This document shows positions 54,077 to 57,633 of a stretch of DNA of 64,000 bases, one piece after another (position 1 is the first letter of the stretch; every line of letters begins with the position of its first letter). The notes under the pieces are model-generated. The model did not search any database. It worked only from the letters and a program-made list of their open reading frames with translations, and was not told the origin of the DNA. Made by a program: the position numbers and the translations under genes. Where the stretch lies: NCBI GenBank assembly GCA_011053055.1, contig DRHT01000032.1, forward strand, positions 1 to 64,000. Direction: 5' to 3'. Origin of the DNA: Halopseudomonas sabulinigri (GTDB taxonomy: Bacteria; Pseudomonadota; Gammaproteobacteria; Pseudomonadales; Pseudomonadaceae).

Positions 54077-55147
54077 TTAGCCTAGATATCGGCGCGGTAC
54101 GCGGTTCAGGTTGCAGAACAGCTGATAGGGAATGCTGTCTGCCCAGGCTGCGACTTCACTGGCGTTGAGGCCTGCGCCCCAGAGCCGGATGGTACTGCCC
54201 AGACTGCTGCCGGGCAGGTCGGTCAAATCAACCGTGAGCATGTCCATGGAGACGCGGCCAATCAATTGGCTGCGCTGACCGTCGACCAGTACCGGGGTGC
54301 CATCTTTGGCGTGGCGCGGATAACCATCGGCATAGCCCATGGCGACCACGCCGACGCGGGTGGGGCGCTGGGTGATAAAGCGCGAGCCGTAGCCAACTGG
54401 CTCGCCAGCCGGCAATTCGCGTACCGCGATGATCTTCGATTCCAACTGCATCACCGGCTGCAGCTGCTCAGCCTGTGGTTGAACGAAGCTGAAGGGTGTG
54501 GCGCCGTACAGCATGATGCCGGGGCGCAGCCAATCACCGTGGGCGCTAGGCCAGGCCAATATGCCCGGCGAGTTGCATAGGCTGGCGGGGCCGTTGAGCC
54601 CTTCATTCGCCTGGGCAAATACGGCGAGTTGCTCTTCCGTGCGGCCCGTATCGGGCTCGTCCGCTCGGGCGAAGTGAGTCATCTTGGTCAAGCTGGCGAC
54701 CTTGTTGTTGCGCTCCAGCCTGCGCCACGTATCGGCGTACTCGGTGGGGCTAAAGCCGACGCGATGCATGCCGGTATCCAACTTGAGCCAGATGTGCAGC
54801 GGCGCGGCTAGTTCGGTCTGCTCCAGCTGATTTAATTGTTCCGCATGATGCAGTACGGCCCAGAGGTTGTGCTCCGCCAATAGTGGCAACTCATCGGCTT
54901 CAAACCAGCCTTCCAGCAGCAAAATCGGCTTGCTGACGCCAGCGGCGCGCAGCTCCAGCGCTTCTTCTATACAAGCGACGGCAAAACCATCGGCTATGTC
55001 TGCCAACGCTTCGGCGCATTGCACCGCGCCATGCCCATAGGCGTTGGCCTTGATCACCGCCAACGCGCGCTGGCCGGACAGGGATTTAGCCAGCAAATAG
55101 TTCTGGCGCAAAGCGTTGAGGTCAATCAGGGCGTGGGCTGGGCGCAT
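54077..55147 (-). CDS. dadX: Catabolic alanine racemase DadX
   Basis: PLP-dependent racemase interconverting L- and D-alanine. The 356-aa protein has the PLP lysine in [14 protein letters not shown] near residue 33, [15 protein letters not shown], and the catalytic tyrosine region [14 protein letters not shown], with PVLVDGQ and [12 protein letters not shown] downstream. It follows ridA and dadA on the same strand, as in Pseudomonas dad operons, but is separated by a 219-bp leader with strong secondary structure. Confidence 0.95.
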
Positions 55148-55160
55148 GAATAGGGTCTTG

Positions 55161-55185
55161 AAAAAATGCGGGCTGAATGCCCCGC
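55161..55185 (-). terminator. Terminator-like hairpin just upstream of dadX
   Basis: On the minus strand GCGGG-GCATTCAG-CCCGC is followed by ATTTTTT, 13 nt before the dadX ATG. The stem is only five or six pairs, so strength is moderate. Its position after the long hairpin at 55194-55311 suggests possible attenuation of dadX. Confidence 0.6.
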
Positions 55186-55193
55186 TAAGCTAA

Positions 55194-55311
55194 GGGACGT
55201 GCTGAACAATTCCGCAACCTCTGGCCTGAAGGTCTCAAAGGCGAGCGCTCAAGCATACATCTGCACGCTTGAGAACTCGCAGAGAGTCTGTGGAATTGCT
55301 CAGCACGTCCC
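55194..55311. repeat. 118-nt branched hairpin in the ridA-dadX gap
   Basis: Outer arms GGGACGTGCTGAACAATTCC (from 55194) and the inverse ending GCTCAGCACGTCCC (55311) match over 21 of 23 bp. Inner arms GCGAG-N2-CTCAAGC (55241-55254) and GCTTGAG-N2-CTCGC (55267-55280) pair around a 12-nt loop, with a small ACCT/AGGT side hairpin at 55217-55233. It may be an RNA leader of dadX or a MITE-like insertion. Confidence 0.8.
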
Positions 55312-55366
55312 AAGATTATCAGACGCGGTTCCTTGGCGGGAATGCGCGACTGATGAGGGGGTAGGT

Positions 55367-55723
55367 TTAAATTGCAGCGACCACTGACATCTCGACCAGA
55401 ATCTCGGGCTCGCACAGCTTGGCTTCCACGGTCGCGCGTGCCGGTGCGGTGCCAGCGGGTAACCATTGATCCCACACGCTGTTCATGGCGGCGAAATCGG
55501 CATCGATGTCTTTCAGATAGATAGTGACCGAGAGGATCCGCGTCTTGTCGGTGCCCGCTTGGGCCAGCAGCGTTTCGATTTCGTTAAGAGTACTGCGCGT
55601 CTGCGTTGCCGCGTCCTTATCCAGATCCTCATCAGCGGCCACTTGACCTGACAGGTAGAGGGTATTTTGATGAATCACAATCTGACTCATGCGCTCATTA
55701 GTGAGCAGTCGCTGGATGGCCAT
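55367..55723 (-). CDS. RidA-family protein of the dad operon
   Basis: A 118-aa YjgF/YER057c/UK114 (Rid) family protein. [19 protein letters not shown] and [24 protein letters not shown] contain the conserved trimer-interface Arg and Glu. Rid enzymes hydrolyse reactive enamine/imine intermediates, which D-amino-acid dehydrogenation produces, so its place after dadA is logical. Translation likely starts at ATG 55723, overlapping the dadA 3' end by 26 bp. Confidence 0.9.
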
Positions 55724-57138: not shown

Positions 57139-57633
57139 ATGAAAACCAAAAAAGCCTCCAGCCGCGAGCTGGACAAGATTGATCGCCACATTCTGCAATT
57201 GCTGCAGGATGAAGGGCGCATGTCCTATGTCGAACTGGGAGACAGGGTCGGCCTCTCTACTACGCCTTGCATGGAGCGAGTAAAGCGGCTGGAGCGGGAG
57301 AAGTTTATCCTCAGCTACGGCGCGCGGTTGAACCCACAAAAACTGCAGGCCAATTTGCTGGTGTTCGTCGAGATCAGTCTGTACTCCAAATCGGCCGACA
57401 TCTTTGACGATTTTCGCCGTGCCGCCACCAAGTTGCCGCACGTATTGGAGTGCCATTTGGTATCCGGAGACTTCGATTATCTGATCAAAGCGCGGATTTC
57501 CGAGATGGCGTCCTATCGCAAGCTGCTCGGCGACATTCTTTTGCGGCTGCCGGGGGTGCGGGAATCCAAGAGCTATATTGTGATGGAAGAATTAAAAGAG
57601 ACGCTCGCCATTCCGATCCCGGAGCCGGATTGA
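57139..57633 (+). CDS. dadR: Lrp/AsnC-family regulator, DadR-like
   Basis: A 164-aa Lrp-type regulator. The helix-turn-helix is LDKIDRHILQLLQDEGRMSYVELGDRVGLSTTPCMERVKRLE, followed by a RAM effector-binding domain (VFVEISLYSKSADIFDDF, CHLVSGDFDYLIKARI). It is divergent from dadA; in Pseudomonas the homologue activates the dad operon in response to L-alanine. The intervening A+T-rich gap (57000-57138) is the expected binding region. Confidence 0.91.
   Translation: MKTKKASSRELDKIDRHILQLLQDEGRMSYVELGDRVGLSTTPCMERVKRLEREKFILSYGARLNPQKLQANLLVFVEISLYSKSADIFDDFRRAATKLPHVLECHLVSGDFDYLIKARISEMASYRKLLGDILLRLPGVRESKSYIVMEELKETLAIPIPEPD

Follow-up and report, generated by a model that had tools for sequence, protein, structure and literature searches.

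The 219-nt gap that separates dadY from dadX in Halopseudomonas sabulinigri holds two hairpins, and these are two features with different origins: a branched hairpin derived from a MITE, and an older hairpin that is followed by a run of Ts. The best explanation of the whole arrangement, to which we give a probability of roughly 0.7, is that a MITE remnant lies between the probable promoter of dadX and the older hairpin, altering the dadX leader. The genes of the locus are as follows (coordinates throughout are those of the window, the whole 64,000-nt stretch of DNA that was analysed):

54077–55147, minus strand: dadX, alanine racemase (TIGR00492, E 3.7e-109), the only PF00842 racemase gene found in this genome, which is 99.5% complete
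55367–55690, minus strand: dadY, ridA-like, a PA5303 homologue, named after PMC9714295
55698–56999, minus strand: dadA
57139–57633, plus strand: Lrp-type regulator, probably dadR, divergent from dadA

In gene order and content the locus is the same as the dad locus of Pseudomonas, named dadR-dadA-dadY-dadX (PMC9714295); many Halopseudomonas differ from it in having a conserved −10-like motif and a hairpin that split dadX from dadY, and in those dadX is the sole racemase.

The branched hairpin and its borders consist of these features:

55194–55311, minus strand: 118-bp MITE copy, a deletion derivative of a family of about 264 bp, folding as a branched hairpin
55194–55213, plus strand: terminal inverted repeat GGGACGTGCTGAACAATTCC, a 20-bp arm
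55292–55311, minus strand: terminal inverted repeat GGGACGTGCTGAGCAATTCC, a 20-bp arm
55192–55193, unstranded: 2-bp target duplication on the downstream side, TT on the dadX strand (from the sequence and the family-wide 2-bp identity)
55312–55313, unstranded: 2-bp target duplication on the upstream side, TT on the dadX strand (on the same grounds)

The outer stem, in which 55194–55216 pairs with 55289–55311 over 23 positions with 21 Watson-Crick matches, is present as an earlier note on this DNA had described it, as are the inner stem and the side hairpin of the 118-nt structure; read as RNA on the dadX strand, the exceptions in the outer stem are one G-U pair and one A·C mismatch, leaving 20 bp uninterrupted in the transcript. 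The gap as a whole folds on this strand at −100.3 kcal/mol, against −61.7 ± 4.7 kcal/mol in 200 dinucleotide shuffles (z −8.2), and Rfam gave no match at the gathering threshold in the window.

Judged by its sequence, the 118-nt branched hairpin is an internally deleted MITE remnant. The copy at dadX has terminal inverted repeats and a target duplication, is small and contains no transposase gene; further copies are dispersed in sister genomes, and occupied and empty sites are found at one and the same locus. In a related species (G018) the identical site, with identical flanks, is occupied by a 179-bp copy; the gap of another genome (G010) lacks the element and presents an empty site, GATAATCTAGGCCTTAGCGGGG, and the sites of other species are empty too. 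The earlier note had offered a MITE as the alternative to a regulatory leader: for the 118-nt hairpin this is borne out by the copies in sister genomes, the orthologous copy, the empty site and the 2-bp duplications, but it does not extend to the T-run hairpin. The search for many copies elsewhere that it had proposed likewise succeeded in the related genomes but not in this one, where the dadX copy is the single family member recognisable at a credible E-value. A lone match to the terminal repeat, GGGAAGCACTGAACAATTCC, lies at G000:C32:67526-67545, 3.5 kb past the window, and is perhaps a remnant.

Among the 37 whole genomes of the genus, a search with the gap gave matches in 16 (E ≤ 0.1; at most 25 per genome, mostly over the hairpin, some of them covering the hairpin part only), and the 264-bp element is matched at E ≤ 1e-6 in 13, this one counted. 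Outside the genus it matches one genome of another genus (299 genomes of the family searched), and plasmid records gave no match to the 264-bp form. The aligned copies have common 20-bp ends close to RGGAAGYRCTGAWYAATTCC; the commonest full length is 264–265 bp, and forms with internal deletions range from 113 to 220 bp. Identical 2-bp flanks occur in 27 of 60 distinct repeat-bounded stretches, a few of which, being short or weak matches, may have arisen by chance, against 11.2 in shuffled ones; the duplicated dinucleotide is mostly TA, but also TT, AA, AT or CA, and duplications longer than 2 bp were not found beyond chance in these stretches. A limited literature search yielded no paper that describes the family, and this MITE family of Halopseudomonas is apparently undescribed.

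In being short and non-coding, with terminal inverted repeats, short target duplications and internal deletion derivatives, the family resembles IS5-related MITEs. An IS5-family element of 1231 bp in H. oceani (G011, L189 994–2224; NF033581, 1.8e-93) has the end GGGAAACGCTGATCAAATCA and is flanked on both sides by TTA, whereas several family copies have 2-bp duplications; its ends are similar but not identical to the family ends, agreeing at 15 of 20 positions with GGGAAGCACTGATCAATTCC. This similarity points to an IS5-type transposase as the putative mobiliser, without being proof of it; the repeat pairs listed in the genus included no autonomous element that carries the ends of the family itself, only the IS5-like relative.

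Copies of the family often lie just past stop codons (for example at L021, L022, L101, L148 and L163): 23 of 52 have, on one side or both, the stop of a long open frame no more than 80 nt away, and for several the distance is at most 10 nt, in a count that includes a few orthologous loci or duplicate entries and whose random control includes coding positions. A subgroup with the ends GGGAAGCGCTAACCCATTTCAC (L011, L025, L153, L156, L165, L168, L174, L176 and L180) always sits within longer conserved flanks (CCCCCAAA / TGAATCCCCCGGG), which suggests a larger nested element. At L080, near 171–434, the sequences CGCTGCGCGCC and GGCGCGCAGCG form an inverted repeat of 11 bp around the element, as though it had inserted in the loop of another hairpin. 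At L051 644–1520 (G029:C1, near 538015), MITE-like ends stand 877 bp apart with no transposase between them; judged by eye, the stretch contains a glutathione S-transferase gene, and these ends may have moved it as a gene cassette.

The second structure of the gap lies between the MITE and dadX:

55168–55185, minus strand: short G+C stem-loop GCGGGGCATTCAGCCCGC, ancestral and independent of the MITE, with one C fewer than in relatives
55161–55166, minus strand: T-run (TTTTTT) past the short G+C stem, kept in 14 genomes of the genus

The short G+C stem (55185–55168) and the six Ts (55166–55161), 13 nt 5' of the dadX ATG (55147), are both present, as had been reported before. Relatives without the MITE have at this place a G+C hairpin with six or seven Ts behind it, and 19–26 nt from stem to ATG; the T-run form occurs in 14 genomes including this one and G018, the 12 others being without the branched hairpin. 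Going by this comparison, the T-run hairpin is older than the MITE, since it also occurs in related species that do not have the element. It is this conservation that makes the short stem credible, and not the terminator scan, which found 3 candidates in the region against 3.4 expected and is not above chance. The sequence has the form of an intrinsic terminator, a conserved G+C stem-loop with a T-run, weakened here by a missing base: the 3' arm is without one C, and the predicted stem energy is −9.1 kcal/mol, compared to −14.9 kcal/mol in G018 and values of about −13 to −15 kcal/mol among the further T-run genomes that were folded. When the full predicted transcript is folded (equilibrium folding only), pairing to the dadX coding sequence competes with the terminator stem, whose pair probability is below 0.1.

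In places this stem has changed on both sides: 9 genomes have G-C as the outer pair (pair 1), 4 have A-T and 3 have G-T, and G024 has A-T as pair 5. The pairs were counted from hand-assigned arms, a choice that favours the structure, because MAFFT had failed to place the hairpin correctly between clades when aligning the short gap. Of the 118 aligned positions of the element, 10 differ between this genome and G018, and dadX differs between the two at 44% of its fourfold sites. Selection on the dadX element was considered and dropped, because control copies, measured against their surroundings, are at least as well conserved: orthologous copies in G008 and G023 (L101/L102, L021/L031) are about 1% different in regions that are 7% different, and in the control pair G001/G008 (L071/L179) the divergence is about equal to that of the flanks. 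Since the dadX copy is not unusually conserved against other orthologous copies, we claim no selection on it.

Directly upstream of the MITE lies a third feature:

55313–55321, minus strand: extended −10-like motif TGATAATCT, probable dadX promoter, on grounds of conservation

Where the MITE is missing, relatives have TGATAATCT, or a sequence close to it, directly before the T-run hairpin. The pattern TGNTANNCT has the form of a sigma-70 extended −10 element (TGN, then a TANNNT hexamer, conserved at a fixed place) and is found within 130 nt in 22 of 30 dadX upstream regions, where shuffled sequence would give 0.6. Of the 30 one-racemase genomes, 27 have it before dadX, a figure that takes in two motifs displaced by the MITE, two that overlap the dadY stop codon, and later-added loci; it is also found in several genomes whose dadX does not follow dadY. 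The motif correlates with racemase copy number: in the six genomes with two racemases, it is present at all six stand-alone copies and at none of the six copies in dadA-dadY operons. It is absent before dadX in three of the 30 one-racemase genomes (G019, G027 and G031), whose dadX must use something other than the motif; upstream of dadX, these three have in common a different conserved sequence. No recognisable −35 hexamer came to notice in these comparisons. From the −10 to the ATG the distance is 53–59 nt in T-run relatives, 174 nt here and 236 nt in G018. Read most simply, the comparison means that dadX, being the sole source of D-alanine, would be driven by an extended −10 promoter of its own, and that the hairpin would block transcription coming through from the catabolic genes; since DadX is the only PF00842 racemase found, a separate promoter would be reasonable. 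Both the conserved −10-like motif and this standing of dadX had been overlooked in the first account of the gap.

Under the explanation that we prefer, a MITE remnant between promoter and hairpin, an element with 20-bp terminal inverted repeats inserted in an ancestor that this species shares with that of G018, just 3' of the dadX −10 and before the older G+C/T-run hairpin, duplicating TT; internal sequence was lost later, leaving of about 264 bp the 118 bp seen here and the 179 bp in G018. In relatives without the element, a dadX transcript from its own promoter would begin at or inside the hairpin, so that it could not use it as an ordinary terminator, and read-through from dadA-dadY would meet the hairpin complete; the only alanine racemase could then be made independently of the catabolic dadA-dadY. 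The insertion would move the promoter about 118 bp from the T-run hairpin. Transcription is predicted to start 5–7 nt past the −10, at about 55306–55308, within the first bases of the MITE, because the MITE directly follows the −10; of the outer stem nearly all would still enter the transcript, almost the whole MITE would form the 5' end of the dadX mRNA, and the T-run hairpin would follow complete, about 120 nt past the start. With the MITE and the complete hairpin both in the leader, a long stable 5' stem would therefore be formed, and partial termination before dadX could occur. The most likely effect is that the 5' UTR becomes long and structured, perhaps with some transcripts ending ahead of dadX; the insertion may also be neutral.

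It is conceivable, though not probable, that the MITE is a silent passenger in a tolerant spot, leaving dadX without measurable effect while RNA polymerase reads through both the element and the weakened stem. In G018 the stem is stronger by 6 kcal/mol than it is here, the divergence of the element between the two genomes is within the range of other orthologous copies relative to their surroundings, and both lineages have internal deletions; however, the position between the −10 and the start codon means that the 5' UTR is necessarily changed, and only the expression level could be unchanged.

Somewhat doubtful is a role in processing or stability, in which the long stem would be cut by RNase III or would protect the 5' end, and the lifetime of the dadX mRNA might change through RNase cleavage. 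The uninterrupted 20 bp of the outer stem would suit this, and there is precedent in Correia elements, reportedly processed by RNase III, and ERIC, reportedly processed by RNase E (PMC10969869), yet any palindromic element would fold likewise. The Correia elements (NEMIS) and ERIC are, like the present family, palindromic and dispersed, entering transcripts and folding; they differ from it in sequence, host group and size, and the dadX copy sits at its gene's 5' end.

The earlier proposal of an attenuator built of both hairpins for the purpose is unsupported, since their origins differ and the T-run hairpin occurs without the branched one, standing alone in 12 other genomes of the genus. Some attenuation by the present arrangement may occur. 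A more far-reaching reading, which we think rather unlikely, is that the insertion made the hairpin, otherwise skipped by transcripts from dadX's own promoter, an attenuator in their path, the supply of the only alanine racemase now depending on termination or processing in the MITE-derived leader; if it were so, the base missing from the terminator stem here could be a compensating change. A dedicated RNA regulator evolved for dadX, whether attenuator or riboswitch, would accord with the stable fold, the adjoining T-run hairpin and the retention in two species, but is highly improbable and mostly refuted by the dispersed copies, the branched part being a repeat found elsewhere and absent from the other dadX loci examined in the genus, with no Rfam match at the gathering threshold.

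The biology that merits further work is how promoter and hairpin are arranged before a sole racemase gene, and the consequence of the insertion for that arrangement. The locus offers a natural experiment, with two species that have, and several that lack, an element between the probable promoter and the start codon of what is apparently their only alanine racemase gene. That the dadX motif goes with the number of racemase copies hints at a way in which a single gene can serve both alanine catabolism and the supply of D-alanine for the cell wall.
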